Shown here: positions 2,381 to 16,543 of the stretch, one piece after another
Numbering within the stretch: the first letter of the stretch is position 1
How the letters are laid out: each line of letters begins with the position of its first letter
Assembly (NCBI RefSeq): GCF_030811855.1
Contig: NZ_JAUSRN010000001.1
Span: 558,001-622,000, forward strand
Reading direction: 5' to 3'
Source: Variovorax paradoxus
Lineage (GTDB): Bacteria > Pseudomonadota > Gammaproteobacteria > Burkholderiales > Burkholderiaceae_C
DNA length: 64,000 nt
Translations under genes and position numbers: made by a program
The notes under the pieces: model-generated
Seen by the model: the letters and a program-made list of their open reading frames with translations, nothing else
Told to the model about the DNA's origin: nothing
Databases searched by the model: none

Positions 2381-2471
2381 GTCTTGTCTCCAGTTTTCGT
2401 TGCGATCCAGGCGAGGTGGCCGGACGGCGGATCAATCCGGCCGGCCTTGGGATGCGGCGCTCTCCCATTTG

Positions 2472-2518
2472 TGCTATCGTTAGCATTGATTCTAGAGAGA
2501 CTTTCTAGATGAAGTCAA
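2472..2518 (-). promoter_or_regulatory. Porin promoter with LacI-type operator at the start site
   Basis: On the minus strand a -35 TTGACT (2513-2518) and a -10 TAGAAT (2489-2494) are separated by 18 bases, each one base off consensus. Three bases beyond the -10, at the expected transcription start, lies the near-palindrome TGCTATCGTTAGCA (2472-2485). The operator copy on the livH promoter has the same three-base offset. The spacer also contains two TCTAGA hexamers (2491-2496 and 2504-2509). Repression by the adjacent LacI-family protein is inferred. Confidence 0.7.
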
Positions 2519-2529
2519 ACGGCTTTTTC

Positions 2530-2563
2530 TTGGCATCCGGACATCGTCGTGCTATCGTTAGTG
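2530..2563 (+). promoter_or_regulatory. Promoter of the LacI regulator with embedded operator
   Basis: A -35 TTGGCA (2530-2535) and a -10 TATCGT (2553-2558) are 17 bases apart. The -10 lies inside TGCTATCGTTAGTG (2550-2563), a second copy of the operator seen at the porin promoter. In this copy, and in the one before the FAH-family gene, the operator begins exactly three bases upstream of the -10. This suggests the regulator represses itself. A start codon at 2509 for the regulator would lie upstream of this promoter. Confidence 0.65.
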
Positions 2564-2598
2564 CATTCCCGTACACTGCTCGCGCATATAGTTCGCAC

Positions 2599-3645
2599 AT
2601 GGTCACGATCAAAGACATTGCCCGGCGCCTCGAGGTCTCCGCTTCCACCGTGGGGCGGGCTCTCTCCGACGACCCGCGCATCAGCGCCGCCATGAAGCAG
2701 AAAGTGGCCGAGGTGGCGAACGAGTTGGGCTATGTGGCCAACCGCGCGGCGCGCATGATGCGCGGCGCCTCCAGCAACCTGGTGGGCCTGGTCGTTCCGG
2801 ACATTCGCAACAGCTTCTACTCGACCATCGCGCATGCGCTGTCCAAATGCCTGGAGAGCGCGGACCTGCAACTCACGCTGTCCGAGACCGACGACGACCG
2901 CCTGGTCGAGCTGCGCCACATCCGCGAACTCACCAGCGTCAACGTGGCCGGCATCATCATCGTGCCGACCGCTCGGCCGCATCCGGAGTCGGTGCGACTG
3001 CTCAAGATGACGCCGCGCATCCAGCTGCTGCGCCGACATGCGGCGCTGGGCGAGCACTGGTTCGGCATCGACGACGCGCAGGCGCTGTTCCAGGCCACCC
3101 GTCACCTGGTCGAACTCGGCCATCAGCGCATCGCCTACATCGGCGGCACCACCGATCTGCCCACGGGTGCCGCGCGGCTGCAAGGCTTTCAGAATGCCCT
3201 CGCCGGCAGCAAGGCGGCCACGCATGCGCGCGAGGAACTCGGCGCACCCGCATCGACGGACTTCGGCCGCGACGCGATCCGCCGCCTGCTCGCACTGCGC
3301 ACCCCGCCCACGGCGGTGGTCCTGGGTTCGGTCCAGAACACGCAAGGCGTGCTGGAGGAACTGCTGGCCAGCGGCGTGCGCGTGCCGGAACAGCTGTCCG
3401 TCGTCGGCTTCGGCGACGAACTGGGCTTCCGCTGGTGGGGCCCCGGCCTCACGACCGTGAGCCTGCCGGTCTCCGAACTGGCCACCGCCTGCGGGCTCTG
3501 GTTCATTCACCAGCTGAAGCAAAAGCCAGAAAGCGCGACCCCCTACAGCTCCGTCTCGCCGCCCACACTCGTGGTGCGCGGCAGCACCCGCGCGCTGGAA
3601 ACGGCCAGCGCCAAACGCGGCCAGGCCCGTCTGCTCGCCGACTAG
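2599..3645 (+). CDS. LacI-family transcriptional regulator
   Basis: This is a 348-residue LacI/GalR regulator. Residues 2-25 form the DNA-binding helix-turn-helix (TIKDIARRLEVSASTVGRAL). A hinge with NRAARMMRG follows, then a sugar-binding-like effector domain beginning VGLVVPDIRNSFYS. I chose the ATG at 2599 because LacI proteins start at this MxTIKDIA block; the reading frame is open further upstream, but those codons overlap the promoter. No clear Shine-Dalgarno sequence is visible. It is divergent from the porin and 21 bases upstream of a hydroxyacid dehydrogenase. Four local palindromes near TGCTAACGTTAGCA are its likely operators. The effector is probably the imported substrate or a metabolite of it. 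Confidence 0.93.
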   Translation: MVTIKDIARRLEVSASTVGRALSDDPRISAAMKQKVAEVANELGYVANRAARMMRGASSNLVGLVVPDIRNSFYSTIAHALSKCLESADLQLTLSETDDDRLVELRHIRELTSVNVAGIIIVPTARPHPESVRLLKMTPRIQLLRRHAALGEHWFGIDDAQALFQATRHLVELGHQRIAYIGGTTDLPTGAARLQGFQNALAGSKAATHAREELGAPASTDFGRDAIRRLLALRTPPTAVVLGSVQNTQGVLEELLASGVRVPEQLSVVGFGDELGFRWWGPGLTTVSLPVSELATACGLWFIHQLKQKPESATPYSSVSPPTLVVRGSTRALETASAKRGQARLLAD

Positions 3646-3666
3646 CCATTCCACCCCTATCTCACA

Positions 3667-4632
3667 ATGAACCACACTGTCCTGCTCACCGACTACGCCT
3701 GGCCCGACGACCGCATCGAGAGAAACATCGTCGAAGCCGCCGGCATGCGCCTCGTGAGCGGCCCGGCTACGCCGTTGACGGCTGACGGCATCGAAGCGCT
3801 GGCGCGCGAGCACCAGCCATCGGCCATCCTGACCTGCTGGGCGCCCGTGTCGGCGGCCGCCATCGCCGCGGCGCCGGAACTCCAGATCGTCGCCCGGCTT
3901 GGCGTGGGACTGGACAACATCGCGGTCGATGCCGCCAGCGCGCGGGGCATCTGGGTCACCAACGTGCCCGACTATTGCGTGGAGGAAGTGTCGGACCATG
4001 CAGTCGGCTTCGCGCTCGCATGGACGCGCGGCCTGGTCCGCTTCGACCGCGAAGTGCGCGCCGGCCAGTGGGATCCCGCGACGGCCAGGCTGCGCCGCCT
4101 CGCCGAACTCACCTGCGGCATCGTCGGCTTCGGGCGCATCGGCCGCGCGACCGCGCGCAAGCTCGGCGCGTTCGCCTGCCGCCTGCTGGCACACGATCCC
4201 TATCTTTCCGCCGACGCTGAAGGCGCTCAGAGCGTGGAACTCGACACCCTCTTCTCGCAGAGCGACATCGTGATCGTGCACGCGCCGCTGACGGAAACAA
4301 CGCGGCATCTGGTCAACCGCGAGCGGCTCGCATTGATGCCCCATGGCGGCCTTCTCATCAACGTGAGCCGCGGCGGCGTCGTCGATACGGACGCCGTGAT
4401 CGAGGCCCTTGGCAGCGGCCGGTTGTCCGGCGCCGCGCTCGACGTTCTCGAGTCGGAACCCCACGTTCCGGATGCACTTAGAAGCCATCCCGGCGCGATG
4501 CTCACGCCCCATGTCGCGTTCTCGTCGGATGCGTCTCTGGTCGAGCTGCGCAGGCGTGCGGCCGAGGAAGTGGTGAGAGTGCTCCAGGGCGTTGCGCCAC
4601 AGCAGCCGCGCAACGCCGGACCGCAAAGATAA
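3667..4632 (+). CDS. D-isomer-specific 2-hydroxyacid dehydrogenase
   Basis: This 321-residue enzyme belongs to the NAD-dependent D-2-hydroxyacid dehydrogenase family (phosphoglycerate dehydrogenase/glyoxylate reductase type). The Rossmann glycine motif GFGRIG is at 154-159. The substrate-binding Arg is in NVSRGG (R235), the catalytic Glu in LESEP (E264) and the catalytic His in TPH (H282). It lacks the C-terminal ACT domain of SerA-type enzymes. It lies 21 bases after the LacI regulator on the same strand, so the two are probably cotranscribed. A plausible job is reduction of a 2-oxoacid or oxidation of a 2-hydroxyacid made by the neighbouring pathway; the substrate cannot be read from the sequence. 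Confidence 0.9.
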   Translation: MNHTVLLTDYAWPDDRIERNIVEAAGMRLVSGPATPLTADGIEALAREHQPSAILTCWAPVSAAAIAAAPELQIVARLGVGLDNIAVDAASARGIWVTNVPDYCVEEVSDHAVGFALAWTRGLVRFDREVRAGQWDPATARLRRLAELTCGIVGFGRIGRATARKLGAFACRLLAHDPYLSADAEGAQSVELDTLFSQSDIVIVHAPLTETTRHLVNRERLALMPHGGLLINVSRGGVVDTDAVIEALGSGRLSGAALDVLESEPHVPDALRSHPGAMLTPHVAFSSDASLVELRRRAAEEVVRVLQGVAPQQPRNAGPQR

Positions 4633-4638
4633 GCTTGC

Positions 4639-4658
4639 GGCCCGGCGGAGGCCGGGTT
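4639..4658. terminator. Hairpin between convergent genes
   Basis: CCCGGC (4641-4646) and GCCGGG (4651-4656) form a GC-rich stem around a GGAG loop, between the hydroxyacid dehydrogenase stop and the stop of the convergent kinase gene. There is no T-run on either side, so intrinsic termination is only a possibility. Confidence 0.4.
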
Positions 4659-5662
4659 CAGCGAAGCGCTGCCCGGCCCCACACGCGTGCGATGTGCGAG
4701 AGCTGGCTTGCGGGACGCAGCACCAGCGGCGCGGCGAATGCGCGCACTGCATCGCGCTGGGCCTCTTCGTTCACGTACTCGACCGGCGACTTGCCGTCGA
4801 CGCGGGCCAGCAGCAGCGCGGGCAGCAAGCGGGCCGCGCGTTCCTCCAGCTCTGCGCGCGGCTCCCAGTTCGCCTGCTCGAAGTAGGCATCGGCGAGCGC
4901 GGCGAACGCTGCGAGCAGGGCCTCGCATTGATCCGGACGTGCGAGGCACTTCAGTAAGAGGTGGTTCAGGCAAAAAGCCAGGTCGAAGGCCGGGTCGCCG
5001 TACCAGGCGCACTCCGCGTCGAGCAGCACGGGCCCGCGGGGGCCGACCAGGATGTTCTTCGGACTGACGTCGCCGTGCACCAGGGCGATATGCAGCCCGG
5101 CCGTGTGCTCCACCAGATCCATCAGCGCGGCGCCCAACGCCGGATGGCGCTCTGCCGTCGCGGCGAAGTAGGGTTCGAGGCGCAATGCCCGGAAATTGTC
5201 GGTCGTGTCGAAGGCGGCCGCGAGTTCGGCCCTGCCCGCACTGGCCGCATGCAACTCGCCGAGGACGCGGCCGACCACTTGCGCCGTGTGCGCCGCGACA
5301 TCGCCGGCCATCAGCTGCTCCTTCCACACCGGATGCTCCTCCGGCGCGAGAAAGGACATGGCGAAGAGCCCGGCCTCGGGATCATGGGCGAGCGGACGCG
5401 GCGCATTGTCGGGCGCATGGCGCGCCGCGAACTGCAGCCATGCCCACTCGTAGGCGTTGCGCGACACCGGCGCTTGCCAATCCGCGGACACCTTGAGCTT
5501 GGCCAACGCGCGCTTGATGCACAGCGATCGGCCCGGGAGCTCGACGCGCCAGATATCGGACGACACCCCGCCCGCCAGCGGATGCCATTGCGCCGGCTCC
5601 CCGGCGCGGGCCAATCCCTGCGACACCAGGAAAGCGCCGAGCATGGATTCCGTGCCGATCAC
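4658..5662 (-). CDS. APH-family phosphotransferase (small-molecule kinase)
   Basis: This 334-residue protein has the aminoglycoside-phosphotransferase/choline-kinase fold. The catalytic loop is HGDVSPKNIL and the metal-binding loop is DAECAWYGDPAFDL. The N-terminal lobe contains the glycine-rich GGVSSDIWRVEL and the ATP-contacting CIKRAL. The family phosphorylates hydroxyls of many small molecules, and nothing here points to drug resistance. Its ATGA start overlaps the stop of the upstream dehydrogenase, so it is the last gene of the 11-gene operon. With an enolase-like protein in the same operon, phosphorylation of a pathway intermediate is worth considering, but that is inference. Confidence 0.85.
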   Translation of the reverse strand: MIGTESMLGAFLVSQGLARAGEPAQWHPLAGGVSSDIWRVELPGRSLCIKRALAKLKVSADWQAPVSRNAYEWAWLQFAARHAPDNAPRPLAHDPEAGLFAMSFLAPEEHPVWKEQLMAGDVAAHTAQVVGRVLGELHAASAGRAELAAAFDTTDNFRALRLEPYFAATAERHPALGAALMDLVEHTAGLHIALVHGDVSPKNILVGPRGPVLLDAECAWYGDPAFDLAFCLNHLLLKCLARPDQCEALLAAFAALADAYFEQANWEPRAELEERAARLLPALLLARVDGKSPVEYVNEEAQRDAVRAFAAPLVLRPASQLSHIARVWGRAALR

Positions 5663-6786
5663 GCCGCGTCCACGGCCTGGGGCAGCACGACATAGTTGCT
5701 GAAGCCGCCGTCACGGTCCTTCAGCCCGGAGATCGCCTCGTTCACGCGCGAGAGCGGGAAGGCGCGATGCTCCAGATACGACAGGTCCAGCGTGCCGGTG
5801 CGAACCATCTCGGCCATCTCCTGGCCCTGCGCTGTCGTGAACCAGTTCGATCCGATCAGCTGGATCTGCTCGTCCATCAGCCACTTCACGTCGATCGGCA
5901 GGTCTTCCGCCACGCCGCCCACGTTGACCACCTTGCCGCCGCGGCGCACGCCCCCCATCGAGTCGAGCATGGTGGCCGCGGGCGCCTTCGCGCCCAATGC
6001 GCTGATGGCGAAGTCGGCACCCTCCCCGCCCGTGAGGGACTTGGCCCATTCGCCGGTGGAGCCCTCGCCGAGCCGCATCACCTGGATGCGGTCGGGTGCC
6101 AGCGCCTTGATCCTGGCGAGCAGCCGTTCGTCGCGTCCGGTGCCCAGGATTTGCGACAGGCCCATGGCCAGGCCCAGCATCGTGGCTGCGACGCCCAGCG
6201 TGCCCGTGATGCCGTCGATGAGGGCGACCTGGCCGGGGCCGGCACCCGCGTTCTTCAAGGCGCCGTAGGAGGTGCCCAGATAGCCGAAGCGCCCCGCTTG
6301 CTCGAAGCTCAGGTTGTCCGGCAGGTTGACGATCGCGTACTCCGGCGTCGTCATGTACTGGCTGAAGCCGCCGTACGGATACAGGTCGAAGATGCGCTGG
6401 CCATCACGGCTCGTGCTGAAGTAGCCGTTCAGCGTGAAGTAGCGGCAATGGCTGCGCTGGCCCGCGCGGCAGGCCCTGCAGGAGCCGCAGGAACGCAGCG
6501 GGCTCACGTACACGCGGTCGCCGGGCTTGGCATTGATCACGGCCTCGCCGACCTCCTCGACCACGCCCACGGCGTCCAGCCCGAAGATGGCCGGGAAGCG
6601 CGGCAGGGGCTGGTGCGGAAACCAGGTCGGCCAGTTGTTGATGACGTTGGCCATGTTGGGCACGATGCCGCACGCCATCACCTTCACCAGCAGGTCGCTG
6701 GGCCGGGGCTTGGGGACCGGGATCGTGTCGAGCGACATCGGCGTGCCGAGCGCGTGCAGCCGGGCTGCGGTCATTGTTCTGCTCAT
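5659..6786 (-). CDS. Zinc-type medium-chain alcohol dehydrogenase
   Basis: This 375-residue protein is a member of the medium-chain dehydrogenase/reductase family. The N-terminal GroES-like domain has a catalytic-zinc region (ACGIVPNMANV) and a structural-zinc-like cluster, CGSCRACRAGQRSHC. The NAD(P)-binding domain follows. The usual GxGxxG of the Rossmann fold is replaced by DGITGTLGVAA. It probably oxidises an alcohol or reduces a carbonyl in the pathway of the operon. It begins 21 bases after the binding-protein gene and overlaps the kinase gene by four bases (ATGA). The substrate is unknown. Confidence 0.88.
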   Translation of the reverse strand: MSRTMTAARLHALGTPMSLDTIPVPKPRPSDLLVKVMACGIVPNMANVINNWPTWFPHQPLPRFPAIFGLDAVGVVEEVGEAVINAKPGDRVYVSPLRSCGSCRACRAGQRSHCRYFTLNGYFSTSRDGQRIFDLYPYGGFSQYMTTPEYAIVNLPDNLSFEQAGRFGYLGTSYGALKNAGAGPGQVALIDGITGTLGVAATMLGLAMGLSQILGTGRDERLLARIKALAPDRIQVMRLGEGSTGEWAKSLTGGEGADFAISALGAKAPAATMLDSMGGVRRGGKVVNVGGVAEDLPIDVKWLMDEQIQLIGSNWFTTAQGQEMAEMVRTGTLDLSYLEHRAFPLSRVNEAISGLKDRDGGFSNYVVLPQAVDAA

Positions 6787-6807
6787 GAAAACCTCTTCTT
6801 GAAAAAC

Positions 6808-8031
6808 TTAAGGGGCGACGAATGCCGCGCCCGACGGACGAAACTTGGGCGGCCACACGGTGACCCACTTGCCGTTCTGGGCCTGCTTGATCTTGGTGTC
6901 GGCCGCGCCGCTGTTGAACTTGCCGTCGAAGCGGCGCGTGCCCAGCACGGTGTCGACCGGATTGGCGCGCAGCCATGCGGCCATGGCCTTGTCGTCGAGG
7001 CGGCCGACGCCCTTTGCCGCGGCTTCCAGGATCTGCCAGGCCGCGAACTCCGCCGCGGCCTGGTAGTCGACATGCGGCCAGGAAAGCCCCGCGGCCTTCA
7101 CGCGCTCGTTGTAGGCGGCAACGAATTCGGCCGCGCCGGCGTTCTGCGTGAAGGGTGCGTGGTCCTCGAACCACGTGAGCGTGGTCAGCCCGCCCGCCTG
7201 CGGATTCGACACCGTCGGCCCCGGCGCAGGGAACAGGTGGAACTGGCGCGCAGGCTGGTAGTCGATGCGCTTCATCGCGTCGAGCAGCTGCGCCGCTTCG
7301 AGGCCGACCGCGCCCGACCACAGCAGGTCGGGCGCGGCGTCCTTGATGCGCGCGGCAATGCCGCCGAAGTCGCGCGTTCCGAACTCGTACTCGAGCGACA
7401 GCACGGTCTTCAGGCCCCGCTTGGCCGCGATCTCCTGACCGCCCTTGGCCAGGTCCAGCGCCGAGGGAAACTTGCTGGTGACGAAGGCGATGGTCTTCGG
7501 CGGCGTGGTGGTGCTGGCATAGGCGTCGAGCAGCACCTCGGTATCGGCCAGACGCGGCTCCGGCCCCAGCGGGAGCGCCGGAAACTGCATCTCGTAAGGC
7601 GCCAGGCTCGGGTCGCCGAGGCTGCTCTGGATGAACAGCTTGTTGAAGCGCTGCGCCACGCCCATCGCCGCGATGATCGAGCTGGTGCCATAGGGTCCCA
7701 TCAGAAGGTCGACCTTTTCCCGCGTGATGAGGCGTTCGTACAAAGTGCGCGCGTTGCCCGGCTGCGACTGGTCGTCCAGCAGCATGAGCTCCACCTTGCG
7801 GCCCAGCAGTCCGCCGCGCTTGTTCAGCGCATCGACGAACACTTCGGCCGCCACCTTGTGGATGCCACCGACCGGTGCAAGGGGCCCAGTGAGGGGCAGC
7901 GTGCCGCCCACCCGGATCGGCTCTGCGCCACCGCCACCTTGTGCATGCGCAGGCAAGCCATAGGCCAGCATCAGTGTGCCGGACGCGGCAAGAAGGATTC
8001 GGCGCTGTTGTTGAAATCTGGTGATGCTCAT
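6808..8031 (-). CDS. Periplasmic substrate-binding protein of a LivK-type ABC importer
   Basis: This 407-residue protein belongs to the branched-chain amino-acid binding protein class (type I periplasmic fold). The ATG at 8031 has a good AGGAG site and starts a clear signal peptide ending GLPAHA. The mature protein opens with IRVGGTLPLTGPLAPVGG, the family's ligand-pocket start, and contains LLMGPYGTSSIIAAMGVA. The permease and ATPase genes livH, livM-livG and livF lie upstream in the same operon. In soil betaproteobacteria such systems often import aromatic acids. Beside a ring-cleavage dioxygenase that is the most likely role, though the ligand is inferred. Confidence 0.92.
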   Translation of the reverse strand: MSITRFQQQRRILLAASGTLMLAYGLPAHAQGGGGAEPIRVGGTLPLTGPLAPVGGIHKVAAEVFVDALNKRGGLLGRKVELMLLDDQSQPGNARTLYERLITREKVDLLMGPYGTSSIIAAMGVAQRFNKLFIQSSLGDPSLAPYEMQFPALPLGPEPRLADTEVLLDAYASTTTPPKTIAFVTSKFPSALDLAKGGQEIAAKRGLKTVLSLEYEFGTRDFGGIAARIKDAAPDLLWSGAVGLEAAQLLDAMKRIDYQPARQFHLFPAPGPTVSNPQAGGLTTLTWFEDHAPFTQNAGAAEFVAAYNERVKAAGLSWPHVDYQAAAEFAAWQILEAAAKGVGRLDDKAMAAWLRANPVDTVLGTRRFDGKFNSGAADTKIKQAQNGKWVTVWPPKFRPSGAAFVAP

Positions 8032-8056
8032 CGTTGTCTCCTGGAATTTCGGAAGA

Positions 8057-8078
8057 CCGGCCGGACGGCGCCGGCCGG
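8057..8078 (-). other. Intercistronic hairpin before the binding-protein gene
   Basis: Two copies of CCGGCCGG (8057-8064 and 8071-8078) flank the six-base loop ACGGCG in the 61-base gap between the decarboxylase-like gene and the binding-protein gene. There is no T-run. Such stems between cistrons can slow RNA decay and raise expression of a binding protein relative to its permeases. That role is an inference. Confidence 0.4.
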
Positions 8079-8092
8079 GCGTGCGGCGGCTG

Positions 8093-8623
8093 TCAGCGGT
8101 ATCCGTCCTCGAGCTCGATGGCCAGAGCACCCATGATGCGAACGCCGGAGTTGTACCAACCGATCGTGAGCACCAGTTCGACCAGCTCGCGCTCCGACAG
8201 GAAGGCGGCGGCCTTGCGCCACGTGGGTTCGCTCACATCGACCTTCAGCGTCGACTCGCGCGCCAGCGCCATCACGGCGCGCTCCTCGTCGTCGAAGAGC
8301 GCGGAGCTTTCGAAGTCGGGCACGGCCTTGAGCTGTTCGGCGCTGATGCCCGCTTTGAGACCATGCGACTGGTGATGCGCGATCTCGTAGGCCGACCCGG
8401 TGCAGTGGCCCACGGTAAGAATCGCGAGCTCGCGCAGCTTGGGGCTCAGCTTGGAGCCGCGCAGCGTGTTGGCATAGGAGATGAACCCGTCCAGCACCTG
8501 CGGCGCGTGCGCCAGCGCACTGAAGATGTTGGCGGTGGGCACCTTGCGTTCGCGTTCCAGCCTGTCGAACAGGGCTTGGTCGGCGTCGGTGTGCGAACGT
8601 TGGAGATATCTGACTCGTGCCAT
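8093..8623 (-). CDS. Carboxymuconolactone decarboxylase / AhpD-family protein
   Basis: This 176-residue protein has the AhpD-like core. Its motif GHCTGSAYEIAHH matches the family pattern ExxxxxxCxxCxxH only in part: one Cys and the His are present, while the position of the second redox Cys is Ser-Ala. Members of this type are usually annotated as carboxymuconolactone decarboxylase family rather than peroxidases. The gene lies between the dioxygenase and the binding-protein gene in the operon, which fits a role in aromatic ring-cleavage chemistry. The start at 8623 gives the MARVRYL beginning; a longer frame upstream overlaps the dioxygenase gene and is not used. Confidence 0.85.
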   Translation of the reverse strand: MARVRYLQRSHTDADQALFDRLERERKVPTANIFSALAHAPQVLDGFISYANTLRGSKLSPKLRELAILTVGHCTGSAYEIAHHQSHGLKAGISAEQLKAVPDFESSALFDDEERAVMALARESTLKVDVSEPTWRKAAAFLSERELVELVLTIGWYNSGVRIMGALAIELEDGYR

Positions 8624-8643
8624 GGCAGTGACCTTTCTCGTCT

Positions 8644-9651
8644 TTATTTCTGCATGGAGAGCGCCAGCGCATAGCTCTCCAGCGTTTGGGGATTGGGTTT
8701 CTCGGCCGGCTCGATGAGCGCGGCGCCGGCGAAGGCGGTGGCCTCGAAGTACCAGCGGGCGGGGGCAGGAATCCCCCAGCGCACATTGGTGCTCAGCGAG
8801 GCTGCCTCCCACCTGACGGGTTCGATCTCGAAGTCGATGGTCTGGTAGTGGCTGTTGAAGAGTTCCACGCGATGACCGTCCGGATCGCGCAGATAGACGA
8901 ACAGCATCCCGCCCGGCCCATGGCGCCCGGGCCCGCGTTCCACCGAAGCGGCGTAGCCGTAGTTGCCCGCCAGGTCGCAGGCCGTGAAGATGTTGTGCGA
9001 CTCCGAGACGGTGTAGGCAAAGTGGTGCAGGCGGGGCCCCGCGCCCTGCACGATCGCCAGGTCCAGGCAGGTGCCCTTGCGGTACATGAATGCACCCAGC
9101 AGCTTGTCGCCATGGGCGATGTACTCGGAGTTGCGAAAGCCCAGCCGGCTGTAGAACTCGCACAGCGCGTAGGTGTCCGGGGCCAGCAGCTGGTAGTGGT
9201 CGAGACGCTGCGCATGGGCACCGGTGAAGCTCTCGACCTTCAGGTACATGCGCGGCAGCGTCTCCATCTGCGCGCAGAGTTCGATCTTTGTGCCGATCGG
9301 GTCCTCCACGTGGAGCGTGCGCCCCTGATGCGGAACATCGACCCATTCGGCAGCGAGGCCCTCGGCCTTGAAGAACGCGTAGGCGCTGTCCAGGTCTTCC
9401 TCGAAGAAGACGCGAAAGCCGATTCGCTTGCATGTCTGTTCGCCGCCCTGCGACTGAACCAGCACCAGGCTGTGATGGCAGGCTTCGGCCAGCCCTCGCA
9501 GGTAGCAGACGCCTTTGCCCTCCTCCGAGATGACGAGCCCGACGATGTTGACGTAGAAGTCGCGGCTCCTTGCGAGATCGGCGACATGGAGGACGACGTG
9601 GCTGGCACGCGTGATGTTGAACGGCGGACGAAGATTGACTGCGGGCAGCAT
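8644..9651 (-). CDS. Extradiol ring-cleavage dioxygenase, type I (vicinal oxygen chelate)
   Basis: This 335-residue protein has two glyoxalase/bleomycin-type domains, about residues 14-130 and 145-275. The second holds the expected Fe(II) ligands of catechol 2,3-dioxygenase-type enzymes: His152 in LDHYQL, a His of RLHHFAY (209-210) and Glu263 in HRVELFNSHYQT. The family opens catechol-like rings next to the paired hydroxyls to give coloured hydroxymuconic semialdehydes. It is flanked by an FMN reductase and a carboxymuconolactone-decarboxylase-like gene. An FAH-family enzyme shares the operator, as expected for a meta-cleavage route. The ring substrate is unknown. Confidence 0.92.
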   Translation of the reverse strand: MLPAVNLRPPFNITRASHVVLHVADLARSRDFYVNIVGLVISEEGKGVCYLRGLAEACHHSLVLVQSQGGEQTCKRIGFRVFFEEDLDSAYAFFKAEGLAAEWVDVPHQGRTLHVEDPIGTKIELCAQMETLPRMYLKVESFTGAHAQRLDHYQLLAPDTYALCEFYSRLGFRNSEYIAHGDKLLGAFMYRKGTCLDLAIVQGAGPRLHHFAYTVSESHNIFTACDLAGNYGYAASVERGPGRHGPGGMLFVYLRDPDGHRVELFNSHYQTIDFEIEPVRWEAASLSTNVRWGIPAPARWYFEATAFAGAALIEPAEKPNPQTLESYALALSMQK

Positions 9652-9697
9652 GAGGAACCTCGCGGAGGGTTGGATTGAGAGGGAAAAGACTTGCCGC

Positions 9698-10285
9698 TCA
9701 GCCCAGGGCTGGCTGCGCTGACGAGGCTCGCGCCGCGCGAAGCAAACCGATCTCGGCGATCAGGTCGTTGATGGCTTCGAGCGCGAAGGCCAGGCTCGTG
9801 GCGTCTGCCAGCCGCCCGTCTTCGATCTTTGTATTGACGCCCGCGATGACGACCTGGGGCCTGGCGATCACGCGCGACAAGGTGCCGCCCAGCGTGTCGC
9901 GCAACTGGGCTTGCGCGCGCACGCCGCCGGTGAATGCAGGCGAACTGGTCATCACCAGCACCGGCTTGCCCTTCAGCGGAGAGGCGAACGCCGGCCGAGA
10001 TGCCCAGTCGAGCGCGTTCTTCAGGACGCCGGGCATTCCGAAGTTGTATTCGGGAGAGCACAGCACGACGCCGTCGCTCGAGTCGATCGTCGCCTTGAAC
10101 GCCCGCACGGCATCCGGAAGTCCGGGGCCATCGAGGTCCTGGTTGTACGAGGGAATGCCGTCGAGGGGCAGCAGCGCCATCTCTACGCCCGCTGGCAGCG
10201 ATGCCTGAAGCGTGCGGAGAATGGCCGTGTTGCTGGATGCTTTTCGCAGGCTTCCTGAAATGCCTGCCAGCCTGATCGTGGTCAT
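9698..10285 (-). CDS. NADPH-dependent FMN reductase family protein
   Basis: This 195-residue flavodoxin-like protein has the phosphate-binding loop GSLRKASSNTAIL near the N-terminus. It also has the family signature SPEYNFGMPGVLKNALDWASRP. Relatives reduce FMN or quinones with NADPH, often to supply a two-component monooxygenase. No flavin monooxygenase gene is in this operon, so it may act on a quinone made from the catechol, or serve an oxygenase elsewhere. It has an AGGAAAG ribosome site and lies 46 bases upstream of the dioxygenase gene. Confidence 0.88.
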   Translation of the reverse strand: MTTIRLAGISGSLRKASSNTAILRTLQASLPAGVEMALLPLDGIPSYNQDLDGPGLPDAVRAFKATIDSSDGVVLCSPEYNFGMPGVLKNALDWASRPAFASPLKGKPVLVMTSSPAFTGGVRAQAQLRDTLGGTLSRVIARPQVVIAGVNTKIEDGRLADATSLAFALEAINDLIAEIGLLRAARASSAQPALG

Positions 10286-10325
10286 GGGGATGTCTTTCCT
10301 GGTGGGATGAAGTGATGCGCGGCGT

Positions 10326-11618
10326 TCATTGCGCGCGATGTCGAAACGGCAATGCGGACCAACCGCTGAACACGGCGTCCCGGCCCAGCGACTCTTCGAT
10401 GCGCAGCACCTCGTTCCACTTCGCCATGCGCTCCGAACGCGAGAACGAACCGACCTTGAGCTGGCCCGCGTCCCAGCCGACGGACAGATGCGCGATGGTC
10501 ACGTCCTCGGTCTCGCCCGAGCGGGCCGAAACGATGGTTCCAAAACCCGCCTGCTTGCCGGCCTTGAGTGCCGCATGCGTCTCGCTGATCGTGCCGGCCT
10601 GGTTGGGTTTGATCAGCACCGCGTTCGTGCATTCATCGGCTGCGGCAGCGGTCACGCGCGCCGCGTTGGTCACGAGAAAATCGTCGCCGATCACCTGGCA
10701 GCGGCCGCCGTAGGCTGCGGTGAACTGGCGGAAGCCGGCCGCGTCGTCTTCGGCGAGCGGGTCTTCGATCGACAGGATCGGGTAGGCGTCGAGCCAACGG
10801 CCGAGCATGGCGATCATCTCGCCGGTGTCGAGGCTGCGGTCTTCCAGCGCCAGCGTGTAGCGCCCGTCACGGCCGAATTCGGAGGCCGCGATGTCGAGCG
10901 AGATGCCGACCTGCTCACCCGCGCGCAAACCTGCATCGGCGATGGCCTGCATCAGCGTGTCGAGCGCCTGTTCGTTCGAATCGAAGGCCGGCCAGTAGCC
11001 GCCCTCGTCGGCAACCCCTTGCAGCTTGCCTTGCTTCTTCATCAATGCGCCGGCGGCAAGATAGATCTCTGCGGTCCATTCGAGCGCCTCGCTGAAGCTG
11101 CCGGCGGCCGGGCACATCACCATGAAGTCCTGCACATCGACACGCCGCGCGGCGTGCGCGCCGCCACCGAAGATCTGCACTTCGGGCAGCGGCATGCGCA
11201 CCGGCCGCTCGCCAGCCAGATAACGCCACAGGGGTTGCTGCGCCGCCGACGCCGCGGCGTGCAGCACCGCCATCGATGCGGCCACGATCGCATTGCCGCC
11301 GAGCCGGCTGCGGTTCGGGGTGCCGTCGAGCGCCACCATGCGCGCATCGATTCCGGCCTGGTCGCGCGCATCGAGCCCCATCAGGCAGGACGCCATCTCG
11401 CGCATCGAGCCGAGCGCCTTCGCCACATCCAAGCCGCCGAAGCGAGAGCCGCCGTCGCGCAGCTCGAGTGCTTCGCCGCTGCCGGTGGAGGCGCCGGCGG
11501 GCGCGATGGCGCGCGCCACGGTGCCGCAGGCCAGCGTGACCTCGGCCTCCACCGTCGGCCGTCCGCGTGAATCCCACACGCGCCGCCCATGCAGGCGCGT
11601 GATCCTCGTGTCATTCAT
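10326..11618 (-). CDS. Enolase-like protein with altered active-site residues
   Basis: This 430-residue protein aligns end to end with enolase by its motifs: GASTG near 42-46, the mobile-loop His155, DEGGYWPAF (Glu205), the metal ligands Asp242, Glu285 and Asp312, the base Lys337 in IKPNQAGT, and Lys388. Two positions differ from glycolytic enolases. The His of the S-H-R-S-G-E-T segment is Ala365 (SARSGETED), and the Glu usually found in the QEFM segment is Asp164 (VQDFM). It lies in a catabolic operon rather than beside pyrG/eno. I read it as a paralogue acting on a different, perhaps phosphorylated, carboxylic acid. Carboxyphosphoenolpyruvate synthase is a known precedent for such divergence. 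The chosen ATG gives the usual enolase N-terminus. Confidence 0.85.
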   Translation of the reverse strand: MNDTRITRLHGRRVWDSRGRPTVEAEVTLACGTVARAIAPAGASTGSGEALELRDGGSRFGGLDVAKALGSMREMASCLMGLDARDQAGIDARMVALDGTPNRSRLGGNAIVAASMAVLHAAASAAQQPLWRYLAGERPVRMPLPEVQIFGGGAHAARRVDVQDFMVMCPAAGSFSEALEWTAEIYLAAGALMKKQGKLQGVADEGGYWPAFDSNEQALDTLMQAIADAGLRAGEQVGISLDIAASEFGRDGRYTLALEDRSLDTGEMIAMLGRWLDAYPILSIEDPLAEDDAAGFRQFTAAYGGRCQVIGDDFLVTNAARVTAAAADECTNAVLIKPNQAGTISETHAALKAGKQAGFGTIVSARSGETEDVTIAHLSVGWDAGQLKVGSFSRSERMAKWNEVLRIEESLGRDAVFSGWSALPFRHRAQ

Positions 11619-12192
11619 GAATATTCCCTGTGTCGAATGGGGTGTCATTGCGTGCCGCGGCCGAAGCGCCGATCAGCACGAAGGCGAGCGTCGCAGGACG
11701 CTCACTCTTGTTGCGCCATGCGTGGCGGGTGCCGTGCTGCACCACCACCTCATGGCGCCGAAGATGCGTGGAGCGCCCCTCGTCGAGCTCGATCCAGATC
11801 TCGCCGTCGAGCACGACGGCGTAGTCCATGGTTGGCGTCGCGTGCATGCCATCAGGCTCGAAGCACTCGGCCAGGCCCGGGCTGACGGCGAGGTTTTCCG
11901 CGGCCGCGGCGGCCGGCTCGAACTCCCGCGCCGCGAACACGCTGTCGGGCGGAAACGTGACGATCAGGAAGCGGGTGCCACCCGGTGAGGGAACGAAGCT
12001 GGCAACGGAGGGTGTCGGATCGAGGCCGTCGAACGGCAGCCCTGGCACCGGCGCACTCGCCCACACCAGGCGCGACACCATGCCCGGAACATGCTGGAAG
12101 GCATGGGAACGCGGCACGCCGGTGTCGAGCGCGACCTCGGATGCGCCCCTTGTGTCGTGGCCCGTGACAACGCGGCGGATGGCCAGGGGCAT
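11611..12192 (-). CDS. Cupin-domain protein
   Basis: This 193-residue protein carries a single cupin barrel in its C-terminal half. MDYAVVLDGEIWIELDEG is the first cupin motif and VVQHGTRHAWRNKS is the second, with a metal-type His pair. Cupins of this size act as isomerases, dioxygenases or sensors, and the reaction here cannot be assigned. The ATG at 12192 has a GGGCGAGG site and follows the LivF stop by about 20 bases. The 3' end overlaps the enolase-like start within ATGAATGA. It probably acts on a pathway intermediate of the operon. Confidence 0.8.
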   Translation of the reverse strand: MPLAIRRVVTGHDTRGASEVALDTGVPRSHAFQHVPGMVSRLVWASAPVPGLPFDGLDPTPSVASFVPSPGGTRFLIVTFPPDSVFAAREFEPAAAAAENLAVSPGLAECFEPDGMHATPTMDYAVVLDGEIWIELDEGRSTHLRRHEVVVQHGTRHAWRNKSERPATLAFVLIGASAAARNDTPFDTGNIHE

Positions 12193-12211
12193 GCCCTCGC
12201 CCGATGAAAGA

Positions 12212-12919
12212 TCAGACGCCAAGATAGGCCTCCCGGATGCGAGGGTTGCCGAGCAGCGTGTCCGCTTTTCCCGAAGCCACGATGCGGCCCTGCTCGATGA
12301 CATAGGCGTGGTGCGCCATCTCGAGCGCCTTGTGGATGTTCTGCTCGACCAGCAGCACGGCCACGCCGCGCTCGTTGATCGTCCGGATGATCCGGAACAT
12401 GTCCTCGACCACGGCCGGCGAAAGGCCGAGCGAGGGCTCGTCCATCAAGAGCACCCGGGGACGCGACATCAGCGCACGGCCGATGGCCACCATCTGCTGC
12501 TGGCCGCCCGACATCGAGCCGGCGATCTGGTGGCGGCGTTCGCTGAGGATCGGAAAGAGCGAGAACACCCTTTCGAGAGAGCCTTCTGCCGAGCCGCGCG
12601 CGTCGGCTCGCCAGCCCCCGAGTTCGAGGTTGTCGAGCACAGTCATGTGCGTGAACAGGCGCCGCCCTTCCGGAACAATGGCGATGCCGTGCTCGCACAC
12701 GCGATGGCTCTGGACCTTCGCGATGTCCTTGCCATCGATGCGGATCTCGCCCTGTCGCGCACGCAGGATGCCGGCGATGGTGTTGATCAGCGTGCTCTTG
12801 CCCGCGCCGTTAGGCCCGACCACGGCGACGATCTGTCCCGCGGCAACGTCGAGCGATGCATCCCAGAGCGCGGGCGCGTCGCCATGGGAAACGTGGAGGT
12901 TTCTGACTTCAAGCAGCAT
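12212..12919 (-). CDS. livF: Branched-chain-type ABC transporter ATPase LivF
   Basis: This 235-residue ABC ATPase has Walker A GPNGAGKST, the signature MSGGQQQM, Walker B VLLMDEPSLGLSP and a switch His region near VEQNIHKAL. The end, IREAYLGV, is typical of LivF. It partners the ATPase half of the LivM-LivG fusion upstream, and their genes overlap by 11 bases. Together with LivH and the binding protein it forms the importer of the operon. The start at 12919 gives MLLEVRNLHV, the family norm. Confidence 0.93.
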   Translation of the reverse strand: MLLEVRNLHVSHGDAPALWDASLDVAAGQIVAVVGPNGAGKSTLINTIAGILRARQGEIRIDGKDIAKVQSHRVCEHGIAIVPEGRRLFTHMTVLDNLELGGWRADARGSAEGSLERVFSLFPILSERRHQIAGSMSGGQQQMVAIGRALMSRPRVLLMDEPSLGLSPAVVEDMFRIIRTINERGVAVLLVEQNIHKALEMAHHAYVIEQGRIVASGKADTLLGNPRIREAYLGV

Positions 12920-14690
12920 GTGCGGTCCCCAGGTAAGCGCCGACGACACGGGGGTCCTGCATCGTTTCGCGCGGAAGCCCGAGGGCGAGCAGCGTGCCTT
13001 GGTCGAGCACCGCGATGCGATCGGCAAGCGCGACCACGGCGCGCATCAGGTGCTCGACGAAGACGATGGTGGTGCCGCCCGCTCTGATCTTGCGGATCAT
13101 TGCGATGGCGTGGTCGACTTCGGTCGGGGTCAATCCGCAAAGCACCTCGTCCAGCAACAGAAGGCGCGGCCGCGCTGCCAGGGCGCGCGCGAGTTCGACG
13201 AACTTGCGCTCATGCAGGTTGAGTGCGGGCGGCAGCACGTCTGCCTTGGCTTCGAGACCCGTGAACGCGAGCCAGCGTAGTGCCAGCGCATCGGGGCTCT
13301 CGCTGGCCGCGTCCGGTGCGCCGCCGAAGAAGGCGCACAGCCGCACGTTCTCCAGCACCGTCAGGTGATTGAAGAGGCGCGGGATCTGGTAGGTGCGCGC
13401 GATACCGCGGCGCGCGACCTCGTGCGGCGCCAGGCCGTCGATCGATGCGCCCTGCAGCTCGATGCTGCCGGAGCTGAGCGGAAAGTGCCCGCTGATCATG
13501 TTGATCAAGGTCGACTTGCCGGAGCCGTTGGGTCCGACGAGCGCGAGGATCTCGCCTTCCTCGACCTGCAGGTCGACGCCCTGCAGCGCCCGGATGCCGC
13601 CGAAGGACTTCACGACCGCGCGGCATGTCAGCAAGGGGCTTGCAGCCGTGGCGGCATGGACGGCTGGCGGCTTCATCACGACGACGTTGCCCGGCTCGCT
13701 CGCGGTCGCAGGTTCGGGTGCGGATACGGGCGCGGCGTTCTTGCGTCGAGCGAAGCGGCCGAACAGGCTGGGCGCGATGCCCTCGGGAAGAACCAGGATC
13801 ACGACCACAAGTGCGAGCGCCACACCGGCACGGCCGAGCTCGGCGTGTCCACCGCCAACGAAAAGGCTCAGCGCAACGGTGATCAAGGTGGCGCCGATGG
13901 CCGGTCCTGCCCAGTGGCGGGCGCCGCCGAGGATGCTCATGAGCACGACGTACAGCGGCACCGTGATCGAAAAGGTCTCGCCCACGGTGACATAGCCCAC
14001 GTACGCAGCCTGGATCGCGCCGGCCGCGCCGGCAATCGCCGAAGAGATGGCGAAGGCGACGAGCTTGTAGTGCAGGGTCGGCACGCCCTTGACCTCCGCC
14101 ACGTCCTCGTCGTCATGGATGGCCAGCAAGCCGGCCCCCAGGCGCGAGCGAAGGATTCGGCGCGAGACTGCGAGCGCGGTGAACGCCAGCACGAGCCCCA
14201 GCAGGTAGATGGCCCCCGGCACCGTGGTGCCGAGCTGGGGGATGGAGACGTTGCTCAGGTAGACCCCGCCACCACCGTCGATCGGCGTATTGGAAATGAC
14301 GGCCGCAAGCACGTAGGTCACGGAGAGCGTGAGCAGCGCGAAGAACTCGGCGCGCAGCGTGTTGATGCGGAACACCACCCACCCGATCCCGAGTGCGAGC
14401 GCCGCCGCGATCCCGGCTGCCGCCGGAATGGTCAGCAGAAAGGGCATGCCCCATTTGCCGGCCAGCGTGGCCGTCGTGTAGGCGCCGGCACCGTAGAACG
14501 CCGCGTGGCCGAAACTCCAGTAGCCCGAGTAGCCGCTCAGAATGCCCCAGCTGGTAGCCAGCGCGATCCATAAAAAGATGACATAGAGGTATGACAGGTA
14601 AAAGTCGGCAACGCCGGCAAAGGGCAGCGCGATCAGGCCGGCCACGGCCGCCATCGCCGCTGGGCGTGCATGTCGTGGGGTCAGAGCCAT
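12909..14690 (-). CDS. Fused LivM permease and LivG ATPase of a branched-chain-type ABC importer
   Basis: This 593-residue protein joins two transporter subunits. Residues 15-305 are a LivM-like permease with many membrane helices and the conserved GYSGYWSFGHAAFYGAGAY. Residues 310-350 are an Ala/Pro-rich linker. Residues 353-590 are a LivG-like ATPase with Walker A GPNGSGKST (387-395) and Walker B LLLLDEV (510-516). The usual LSGGQ signature is replaced by LNLHERKFVE (490-499). The ATG at 14690 overlaps the LivH end by 10 bases. Such LivM-LivG fusions occur in betaproteobacteria. It pairs with LivH in the membrane and LivF in the cytoplasm. Confidence 0.92.
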   Translation of the reverse strand: MALTPRHARPAAMAAVAGLIALPFAGVADFYLSYLYVIFLWIALATSWGILSGYSGYWSFGHAAFYGAGAYTTATLAGKWGMPFLLTIPAAAGIAAALALGIGWVVFRINTLRAEFFALLTLSVTYVLAAVISNTPIDGGGGVYLSNVSIPQLGTTVPGAIYLLGLVLAFTALAVSRRILRSRLGAGLLAIHDDEDVAEVKGVPTLHYKLVAFAISSAIAGAAGAIQAAYVGYVTVGETFSITVPLYVVLMSILGGARHWAGPAIGATLITVALSLFVGGGHAELGRAGVALALVVVILVLPEGIAPSLFGRFARRKNAAPVSAPEPATASEPGNVVVMKPPAVHAATAASPLLTCRAVVKSFGGIRALQGVDLQVEEGEILALVGPNGSGKSTLINMISGHFPLSSGSIELQGASIDGLAPHEVARRGIARTYQIPRLFNHLTVLENVRLCAFFGGAPDAASESPDALALRWLAFTGLEAKADVLPPALNLHERKFVELARALAARPRLLLLDEVLCGLTPTEVDHAIAMIRKIRAGGTTIVFVEHLMRAVVALADRIAVLDQGTLLALGLPRETMQDPRVVGAYLGTAHAA

Positions 14691-15529
14691 CTGGGCCTCC
14701 ACAGCAGCAGGACGATCAGGATCGAGAAGGCCACCAACGGTGCCCATGCGGGGTTGACCGCCGCCATGGTCACCGATTCCGAAACGCCAATCAGGCAGCC
14801 GGCCGCCAGCGCGCCGAGCGGACGCGCGAGCCCGCCGATGATCACCACCGCAAAGACCACGCCGATCCACGCTTCGATCTGCGAAGGCGCGAGCGTCGAG
14901 GTGAGCGCGATGAACACACCGGCGATGCCGGCCGAGGCGGCGCACAGGCCGGCCAATAGGTACGAAAGACGCTTGGCGTTGATGCCGAAGGCCGCTGCGA
15001 TCGGGCCATCGTGCGCGGCTGCGCGCAGCGCCTTGCCGAGCAGGGTCCGGTTCAGTCCGGCCCATGCGGCGACCGCGAGGAGCGCTGCGCAAGCGAAGGC
15101 GGCGAGTTCCAGCACCGGCACGAACAGCGGTCCGATCCGCAGCGACGCCTGCGCATAGCCGGACTCGAACCTGCGGTAGTCGGCGGACCAGAGCCACTGG
15201 ATCAGCGACTCGATCAGGATGGTGATGCCGAAGGTGACCAGCATCGACGCGAACTCGCTGACCTGGAAACGCATGAACAGCGCGTGCAAGGCAATGCCGG
15301 CGACGAAGAAGGCAGGCACCACGACCAGCGCCGACAGCCACGGTGCGATGCCGAACTGCGTTCCCAGTTGGTAGGTGAGATAGGCGCCGAGGAAGGCCAG
15401 GGCGAAGTGGCTCAGGTTCACCAGGCGCAGCAAACCCCAGCTCACGCTGAGGCCGAGTGCAAGCAGCCCGTAGATGCCGCCTAGCAGCAAGCCGCCAATG
15501 GCCGATTGGGCAAGCAGGGTCGCGCTCAT
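14681..15529 (-). CDS. livH: Branched-chain-type ABC transporter permease LivH
   Basis: This 282-residue integral membrane protein has the LivH pattern: an early helix with GGIYGLLALGLSVSWGLLRLVNLSHF, then six or more further hydrophobic helices, with DGPIAAAFGIN in a cytoplasmic loop. It is the first gene of the 11-gene leftward operon. I prefer the ATG at 15529, preceded by a GGGG site, over a TTG six codons upstream. Its promoter region carries the LacI-type operator, so substrate import is probably repressed until inducer is present. Confidence 0.92.
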   Translation of the reverse strand: MSATLLAQSAIGGLLLGGIYGLLALGLSVSWGLLRLVNLSHFALAFLGAYLTYQLGTQFGIAPWLSALVVVPAFFVAGIALHALFMRFQVSEFASMLVTFGITILIESLIQWLWSADYRRFESGYAQASLRIGPLFVPVLELAAFACAALLAVAAWAGLNRTLLGKALRAAAHDGPIAAAFGINAKRLSYLLAGLCAASAGIAGVFIALTSTLAPSQIEAWIGVVFAVVIIGGLARPLGALAAGCLIGVSESVTMAAVNPAWAPLVAFSILIVLLLWRPRWL

Positions 15530-15596
15530 GGTGAGCCCCTGGTCCAAAGCCGCAAAAGCGGTCCGTCTTTGTTCATGAGGTATGTCTCCTTGTTTG

Positions 15597-15643
15597 TGCT
15601 AACGTTTGCGCATATTCTTGCAAACGCGCATCCTGCTTGTCAA
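15597..15643 (-). promoter_or_regulatory. Promoter of the 11-gene catabolic operon with operator at the start site
   Basis: On the minus strand a perfect -35 TTGACA (15638-15643) and a -10 AAGAAT (15614-15619) are 18 bases apart. TGCTAACGTTTGCG (15597-15610) lies three bases beyond the -10 at the expected start, the same layout as at the porin promoter. A second dyad, CGTTTGC at 15603-15609 and GCAAACG at 15620-15626, spans the -10. The match to the operators beside the LacI gene supports control by that protein. Confidence 0.7.
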
Positions 15644-15677
15644 CGGCTTTCAGAAGAAACTACTTGTAGAGCCCTCG

Positions 15678-15711
15678 TTGACAATCGGCCATCTGAAAGC
15701 TAACGTTAGCA
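15678..15711 (+). promoter_or_regulatory. Promoter of the FAH-family gene with embedded operator
   Basis: A perfect -35 TTGACA (15678-15683) is followed after 17 bases by -10 TAACGT (15701-15706). The -10 lies inside the exact 12-base palindrome GCTAACGTTAGC (15699-15710), within the 14-base site 15698-15711. The site starts three bases before the -10, exactly as at the LacI gene's own promoter. It is the most symmetrical of the four operator copies. Confidence 0.72.
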
Positions 15712-15748
15712 TCAGACACCGGACACAACGAAAGAAATCGGAACCACC

Positions 15749-16543
15749 ATGCACATCGCCAGATACGCGTTGGACGAATGCGTCCACTACGGAATCATTG
15801 AAAACGAGGGCTCGATCGCTCGGCTGCAGAGTTCGCCGCTCGACGGCCTGAAGCGCAGCGGCGCGATCGATGCGCCGTCCGCCGTTCGCCTTCTCGCGCC
15901 CATCGAGCGGCCGCGCGTGTTCGGGCTCGGCTACAACTACGTCGCGCATTCGAAAGAAGTCGGCAAGGCGGTGCCGCAAATTCCGGTGCTGTTCATGAAG
16001 CCGAGCACGAGCGTCATCGGTCCGGACGAGTCGATCGTCTATCCCGAGGATGGGGAGAACATCCACTTCGAGGGCGAGCTCACGGTCGTGATCGGCAAGA
16101 AGGCGCGCCACGTGTCCGCGGCCGATGCGCTGGACCATGTGCTCGGCTACACCTGCGGCAACGACGTGAGCGACCGGGTGCTGCAGCGCCGCGAAAGCGA
16201 ATTCGGCTGCCTGCTGGCAGGCAAGGGCTACGACACCTTCGCGCCGATGGGGCCGGTGATCGCCACCGGACTGGACCCGTCGAAGCTCGGCATCATCACG
16301 CGGGTCAACGGCGCCGTGCGCCAGAACGGCACGACCGCGGACCTGCTGTTCTCGGTGCCGGAGCTCATTGCGTACCTGAGCCGGTACATGACCCTGCTGC
16401 CGGGCGACATGATCATGACCGGCACCCCCGCGGGCGTGGGACCGATCCAGGTGGGCGACACCATCGAGGTCGAGATCGAGGGCATCGGCATCCTGCGCAA
16501 CAACGTGGTGGCGGAGAACCGCGGCAGCGCTGCGCGCGGGTAG
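15749..16543 (+). CDS. Fumarylacetoacetate hydrolase family protein
   Basis: This 264-residue protein has the FAH C-terminal-type fold. It contains KPSTSVIGPDESIVYP, the metal-binding region IHFEGELTVVIGKKARHV, and the closing block GDMIMTGTPAGVGPIQVGD. The family hydrolyses or hydrates products of aromatic meta-cleavage (2-oxo-dienoates, acylpyruvates). It diverges from the catabolic operon and shares the operator motif, so it most likely processes the product of the extradiol dioxygenase after ring opening. Whether it is a hydrolase, hydratase or decarboxylase cannot be decided from the sequence. Confidence 0.9.
   Translation: MHIARYALDECVHYGIIENEGSIARLQSSPLDGLKRSGAIDAPSAVRLLAPIERPRVFGLGYNYVAHSKEVGKAVPQIPVLFMKPSTSVIGPDESIVYPEDGENIHFEGELTVVIGKKARHVSAADALDHVLGYTCGNDVSDRVLQRRESEFGCLLAGKGYDTFAPMGPVIATGLDPSKLGIITRVNGAVRQNGTTADLLFSVPELIAYLSRYMTLLPGDMIMTGTPAGVGPIQVGDTIEVEIEGIGILRNNVVAENRGSAARG

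Follow-up and report, generated by a model that had tools for sequence, protein, structure and literature searches.

A candidate LacI-family regulon with four palindromic operators over a widespread gene cluster in Variovorax paradoxus

A 14-bp palindrome, TGCTAWCGWTAGCA, was found at four promoters within a 64,000-nucleotide stretch of Variovorax paradoxus DNA (hereafter the window; assembly GCF_030811855.1, contig NZ_JAUSRN010000001.1, positions 558,001 to 622,000), where the four sites, O1 to O4, lie in a regulated cluster of about 15 kb (1091-16543). The palindrome is even, has CG at its centre and is common to a LacI-family regulator gene and to the target promoters. We propose, with a probability of about 0.9, that this regulator would act as a local, autoregulated repressor of all four promoters through O1 to O4. 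The site was observed to follow the regulator across two phyla and to stand before the same gene families even in rearranged clusters, which supports the claim of a preliminary description of this DNA that porin, importer, enzymes and regulator belong to one local regulon.

2599-3645, plus strand: LacI-family regulator of 348 amino acids; Pfam LacI (PF00356) and Peripla_BP_3 (PF13377) matches above cut-off; orthologues co-occur with the site

Operators and promoters in the window

A pattern search recovered the four copies of the palindrome at the positions that had been given for them. They are listed below with their scores under a matrix built from 35 actinobacterial loci only; they take ranks 1 to 4 in the window, and the next score is 7.9.

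2472-2485: operator O1 at the porin promoter, TGCTATCGTTAGCA, 0 mismatches, score 31.2 (rank 1)
2550-2563: operator O2 at the lacI promoter, TGCTATCGTTAGTG, 2 mismatches, score 17.2 (rank 4)
15597-15610: operator O3 at the livH promoter, TGCTAACGTTTGCG, 2 mismatches, score 20.9 (rank 3)
15698-15711: operator O4 at the promoter of a fumarylacetoacetate-hydrolase-family (FAH) gene, AGCTAACGTTAGCA, 1 mismatch, score 21.2 (rank 2)

The associated promoters are as follows, with conservation given for eight aligned Variovorax genomes, the window included.

2489-2518, minus strand: porin promoter, TTGACT-18-TAGAAT, from the consensus scan; both hexamers intact in 8/8
2530-2558, plus strand: lacI promoter, TTGGCA-17-TATCGT, from the consensus scan; TTG intact in 8/8, spacer one base longer in WS11
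15614-15643, minus strand: livH-operon promoter, TTGACA-18-AAGAAT, from the consensus scan; -35 intact in 8/8
15678-15706, plus strand: FAH promoter, TTGACA-17-TAACGT, read from the sequence; TTGACA intact in 8/8

The operators are paired, 78 bp apart in one divergent region and 101 bp apart in the other. Both the reading of the sequence and the promoter scan agree with the mirrored geometry described earlier. In the porin and livH promoters, which are both on the minus strand, the -10 is followed by three bases and then by the operator. The -10 of lacI (TATCGT, 2553-2558) and that of the FAH gene (TAACGT, 15701-15706) lie within O2 and O4 respectively, each three bases from the start of its operator. 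The consensus promoter scan covered 17.8 kb and gave four candidates (shuffle mean 1.4), among them the promoters of livH, porin and lacI but not that of the FAH gene. The view that all four promoters have good -35 and -10 elements was overstated for the -10s inside O2 (4/6 matches) and O4 (3/6).

In the alignment of both intergenic regions across the eight genomes, the invariant or nearly invariant islands were observed to be the operators, the -35s and the porin -10; most spacers have diverged and a few other short stretches are conserved as well. All 14 bases of O1 are identical in the eight genomes. The other three operators vary at single bases, with a single-base difference in O2 in two of the eight and few-base differences in O3 in two of the eight.

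We also compared the position of -35-like hexamers relative to the operator between groups. Peaks were found at -33 and -20 in Variovorax (12 each among 57 oriented sites; mean 0.53 per offset), at -31 in the other Betaproteobacteria (6/54 sites), at -24, -21 and -28 in Alphaproteobacteria (9, 8 and 7 of 72) and at -22 and -31 in Actinomycetota (26 and 22 of 320), where a further offset of +8 inside the operator was taken as a motif artefact. Since these offsets differ by group, the exact three-base geometry is a Variovorax feature, and it is the placement of an operator over a promoter that recurs. A common helical phase was sought among the paired operators; their spacings cluster at 70-71, 101-104 and 114-116 bp with no single phase and therefore, looping is not claimed.

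Conservation of the site and its association with the regulator

The regulator is sporadically distributed, with hits at E <= 1e-60 in 9 of 101 Variovorax genomes and in 2 of 399 genomes of the order (its own genome included; the other relative is 40% identical). Five candidates were scored per genome in the order-wide search and up to 20 in the genus search, and rare misses are possible. A search of a collection in which each species is represented by one genome yielded 74 LacI loci, found in Variovorax, Paraburkholderia, Pandoraea, Pseudoduganella, Trinickia, Caballeronia, Ramlibacter, Rhizobium and Ensifer, with further loci in Bradyrhizobium, Microvirga, Bosea, Streptomyces, Arthrobacter, Nocardia and Parafrankia and a few distant rows. 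Regulator, site and enzymes were observed to recur together in Alphaproteobacteria, Betaproteobacteria and Actinomycetota. In a tree of the LacI proteins all actinobacterial rows group together (95/95), Alpha- and Betaproteobacteria are not separated, one Variovorax row (G023) is placed away from the remaining eight, and a number of forks lack resolution or support. This topology is compatible with horizontal transfer, as a fit rather than a proof.

Nine further stretches were added to the 74 loci, and five duplicate Variovorax genomes (L054-L058) and three rows below 30% LacI identity (L125-L127) were removed, to give 75 loci. Their 1.45 Mb contain 240 sites with at most one mismatch, and 400 permuted palindromes average 0.78; the permuted maximum of 153 belongs to a near-identical permutation and the next highest count is 14. 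Adding the window brings the totals to 76 loci and 242 sites. Of these sites, 202 fall in the 320 bp before a gene of a family defined in the window, zones that make up 14% of the bases, and two are inside aligned gene bodies. When families neighbouring the sites are added, 225 of the 242 are assigned, a figure that is partly circular.

Target genes were counted by operators with up to two mismatches within the same 320 bp. Such an operator was found upstream of LacI in 65/73 cases, livH in 19/20, the window-type porin in 11/11 and FAH-family hits in 48/64. Lower counts were observed for the dehydrogenase (29/54), the enolase paralogue (25/58) and the dioxygenase-like gene (16/51), which can be because these genes have an internal position in an operon, as they do in the window, or because they are cut at the ends of the fetched stretches. 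For example, the operators in Rhizobium (9 loci) stand before livH, lacI, the dioxygenase-like gene, the carboxymuconolactone-decarboxylase-like (CMD) gene and the FAH gene, and those in Streptomyces mostly before the FAH, lacI, FMN reductase, enolase paralogue and dehydrogenase genes. In the Variovorax genome G023, which has a different gene order, a site pair is again found upstream of a porin gene.

The scan for the motif at random genome sites was run on the window's own genome (6.2 Mb, 41 contigs). With up to two mismatches the palindrome occurs at 11 places, of which four are O1 to O4, and both places with at most one mismatch are in the window. A reversed control pattern gave 22 places. 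The total thus does not exceed background, and what speaks in favour of the regulon is that the sites have few mismatches and are clustered. The remaining seven places score 3.4-14.3 under the matrix, against 17.2-31.2 for O1 to O4, and each overlaps an open reading frame (ORF) of at least 100 amino acids in a mechanical ORF listing. Two of these could be promoter sites: one (L007) is at the 5' end of a 220-amino-acid ORF, and the other (L009, contig C11:188777-188790, TGCAATCGTTTGCA, 2 mismatches) precedes another LacI gene, at C11:188931, by about 140 bp and is possibly that regulator's own operator.

The eight other Variovorax genomes found to carry the LacI gene hold 17 sites with at most one mismatch, 16 of them in the cluster, and an exact site is present in seven of the eight. 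No exact site was found in any of the 16 tested Variovorax genomes without LacI (of 92 such genomes in the genus); these hold five one-mismatch sites in four genomes, and the reversed control gave seven. The signal is in exactness and clustering and not in raw counts.

Several observations weigh against the proposed regulon. O2 and O3 are both two bases off the consensus, and O2 and O4 contain weak -10 elements. The reversed control exceeds the operator pattern in the own genome, as given above, and still reaches 9 places at one mismatch, against 17, in the eight LacI-bearing genomes. The loci were picked by LacI and shared ancestry inflates the counts within genera. The sites behind the matrix were selected with the consensus of the preliminary description; these 14-mers nevertheless also ranked highest when near-palindromes in the actinobacterial loci were listed without guidance. 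Five of the 76 loci (L053, L119, L122, L123 and L124) have no site with at most one mismatch, and the LacI gene of G023, whose product is 65% identical, is preceded by a three-mismatch site only. Finally, none of three Bosea LacI relatives (about 50% identical) has a site at its own gene; a Bosea kinase gene has one.

Regulator, proposed mechanism and competing explanations

Under the proposed mechanism, dimers of the LacI-family protein would bind O1 to O4 and control four units, namely the porin gene, lacI with the D-2-hydroxyacid dehydrogenase gene, the run from livH to the kinase gene, and the FAH-family gene. The second of these is probably one operon. Bound dimers would block RNA polymerase sterically. 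At the porin and livH promoters the operator, being just downstream of the -10, would cover the start site, and at the lacI and FAH promoters it would cover the -10 that it contains. A small molecule derived from the substrate would be predicted to release the repressor.

It is improbable that a different regulator binds the palindromes, such as the LysR-type protein encoded at 150-1094 or another LacI-family protein of the genome. The LysR gene does overlap the end of the porin gene, and in Bradyrhizobium an exact operator close to the end of the retrieved sequence (L060:20836), to which no target gene was assigned, is some 400 bp away from where a LysR gene starts. However, homologues of the window LysR were found in seven loci (six in Variovorax and one in Paraburkholderia), and in no case do the 320 bp upstream contain a site. 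The related palindrome before the LacI gene on C11 also suggests that LacI specificities may overlap. Against a different binder in general, the LacI considered here is the only regulator that all the loci share, although they were picked by it, exact sites are absent from the 16 genomes that lack it, and the even, CG-centred form is usual for LacI-family proteins.

Activation by the LacI-family protein, or repression at some sites and activation at others, is slightly less probable still. Two operators in each divergent region could act on either gene, but all four sites overlap a -10 or a start region, as is typical of steric repression, and two -35 offsets dominate in Variovorax with similar, not identical, offsets in the other groups. 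A chance origin of palindromes in the two promoter regions, which the counts in the window (eight matches with up to three mismatches against 3.35 expected, a level reached by 2 of 100 shuffles, with all four matches beyond O1 to O4 carrying three mismatches; mild evidence by itself) and in the genome would leave standing, is rejected as next to impossible by the conservation across phyla, the permuted-palindrome control, the footprint in the alignment, the absence of exact sites without LacI and the placement upstream of target families, in line with the earlier judgement that a random origin is unlikely.

Cluster content, altered enzymes and comparison with known systems

The other genes of the cluster are listed below; those on the minus strand from livH to the kinase gene form a run of 11, with LivM-LivG counted as one.

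1091-2380, minus strand: outer-membrane porin (Porin_4), family match
3667-4632, plus strand: D-2-hydroxyacid dehydrogenase, starting 21 bases past the lacI stop
4658-5662, minus strand: APH-fold kinase, last of the run, family match
5659-6786, minus strand: zinc-type alcohol dehydrogenase, family match
6808-8130 (start uncertain), minus strand: periplasmic binding protein of a liv-type importer, family match
8093-8623, minus strand: CMD-like protein, family match
8644-9651, minus strand: extradiol-dioxygenase-like protein of the homoprotocatechuate 2,3-dioxygenase family, family match; L at the H200 position
9698-10285, minus strand: NADPH-dependent FMN reductase family, family match
10326-11648, minus strand: enolase paralogue, NCBIfam eno, 474 bits
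11611-12303 (start uncertain), minus strand: cupin-like protein, weak match below cut-off
12212-12919, minus strand: LivF-type ATPase, family match
12909-14690, minus strand: LivM-type permease and LivG-type ATPase in one 593-amino-acid frame (BPD_transp_2 at 32-300, ABC_tran at 369-515)
14681-15547, minus strand: LivH-type permease, first of the run, family match
15749-16543, plus strand: FAH-family enzyme, HpaG-like, family match

These products would provide uptake and a breakdown route for a compound that is probably acidic or ring-bearing. The probable operon of lacI and the dehydrogenase gene, the wide occurrence of the cluster and its unusual enzymes go beyond the preliminary description.

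Additional genes were noticed near the clusters of other genera. In Pseudoduganella (L062:8248-9873) a gene for a PAS-domain chemoreceptor lies between lacI and the kinase gene, with a related copy in L068. In Bradyrhizobium (L060:6675-9790) an operator-bearing FMN reductase gene is followed by genes for an acyl-CoA dehydrogenase and a glutarate-type CoA-transferase. Genes of these last two kinds are found close to clusters in several genera, where neither has its own operator within 320 bp.

The enolase paralogue scores 474 against the curated TIGR01060 cut-off of 300 and is 47% identical to a second enolase encoded on contig C22. Residues are given here in yeast enolase numbering, in which E168 and H373 are catalytic. 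The positions K345, E211, K396, S375, R374 and H159 are intact in the paralogue, and E168 is replaced by D and H373 by A. The second enolase has the usual E and H at both positions. The two changes were observed in 54 of 54 distinct loci from two phyla, including rows only 43-46% identical (the 54 compared rows are 43-97% identical to the window protein or nearer), and also in 120 of 120 relatives, the best 120 of 8000 scored, all of them at least 77% identical. The paralogue is therefore like enolase (phosphopyruvate hydratase) in family score and in most active-site positions but unlike it at E168 and H373, the catalytic residues expected of that enzyme, and its named relatives are labelled enolase or phosphopyruvate hydratase in databases.

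In the dioxygenase-like protein the three iron ligands are intact and the H200 position holds L in 51 of 51 rows, the window included. Since both proteins keep the same changes in two phyla, altered substrates seem a more likely reading than a loss of function. We put forward tentatively, at a little under even odds, that the regulon may run an undescribed catabolic pathway, shared between two phyla, for a non-sugar, ring-bearing substrate, in which the APH-fold kinase would phosphorylate a hydroxy acid and the enolase paralogue, without normal 2-phosphoglycerate specificity, would dehydrate the product. A kojic-acid-like pyrone as substrate is a guess, and kojic acid is unmentioned in the part of the related literature that was surveyed. 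A route from hydroxypyruvate through D-glycerate and 2-phosphoglycerate to phosphoenolpyruvate (PEP) was also considered. A PEP carboxylase gene with an operator upstream in Ensifer (L070:11043-13796) would fit this route, as would another near the Microvirga cluster (L059:2044-4785), which has no operator within 320 bp, but the changed enolase residues make it less probable.

The cluster resembles the homoprotocatechuate (hpa/hpc) meta-cleavage pathway in combining a dioxygenase-like protein that retains its iron ligands with an HpaG/HpcE-like FAH enzyme. It differs in the L at position H200 and in its scores, which are below the NCBIfam equivalog level for both HpaD (291.1 against a cut-off of 321.4) and the HpaG C-terminal family (202.7 against 276.4), and among the scanned cluster proteins no aldehyde dehydrogenase or aldolase family was found. 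A plain homoprotocatechuate pathway was rejected for the lack of equivalog-level scores.

The regulator, operator and targets proposed here can be tested, and they concern a widespread cluster for which no assigned substrate was found in the literature searched; any compound found to relieve repression at the FAH or liv promoter would be a lead to that substrate. The results also point to an enolase subfamily that has a changed active site in every examined member and is called ordinary enolase by databases. If the proposed pathway is real, a LacI-family regulon would here serve the use of a non-sugar, ring-bearing substrate, and the whole "phosphopyruvate hydratase" subfamily would be misannotated.

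The main text of a survey of LacI-family regulation (Ravcheev 2014, PMC4052901) describes most sites as even palindromes with a central CG and predicts functions for 190 regulator groups, with 96% of the pathway-assigned groups given to carbohydrates. That main text makes no mention of Variovorax, Streptomyces, enolase or aromatic, a check that stops short of its supplements and of RegPrecise. The gene combination and the operator strings were unmatched in the literature searched, and a RegPrecise entry may exist. As far as the main text of the survey goes, the local carbohydrate regulons resemble the present one in several respects: the regulator gene adjoins its targets and is autoregulated, even CG-centred palindromes lie near promoters with more than one site per divergent region, and porin, transporter and enzymes are combined. 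The difference lies in the genes, which in the window look like those for cleaving a ring and hydrolysing an acylpyruvate, with a phospho-hydroxyacid branch. The type of regulon is itself ordinary, and the recurring cluster with its unusual enzymes is the uncommon part.

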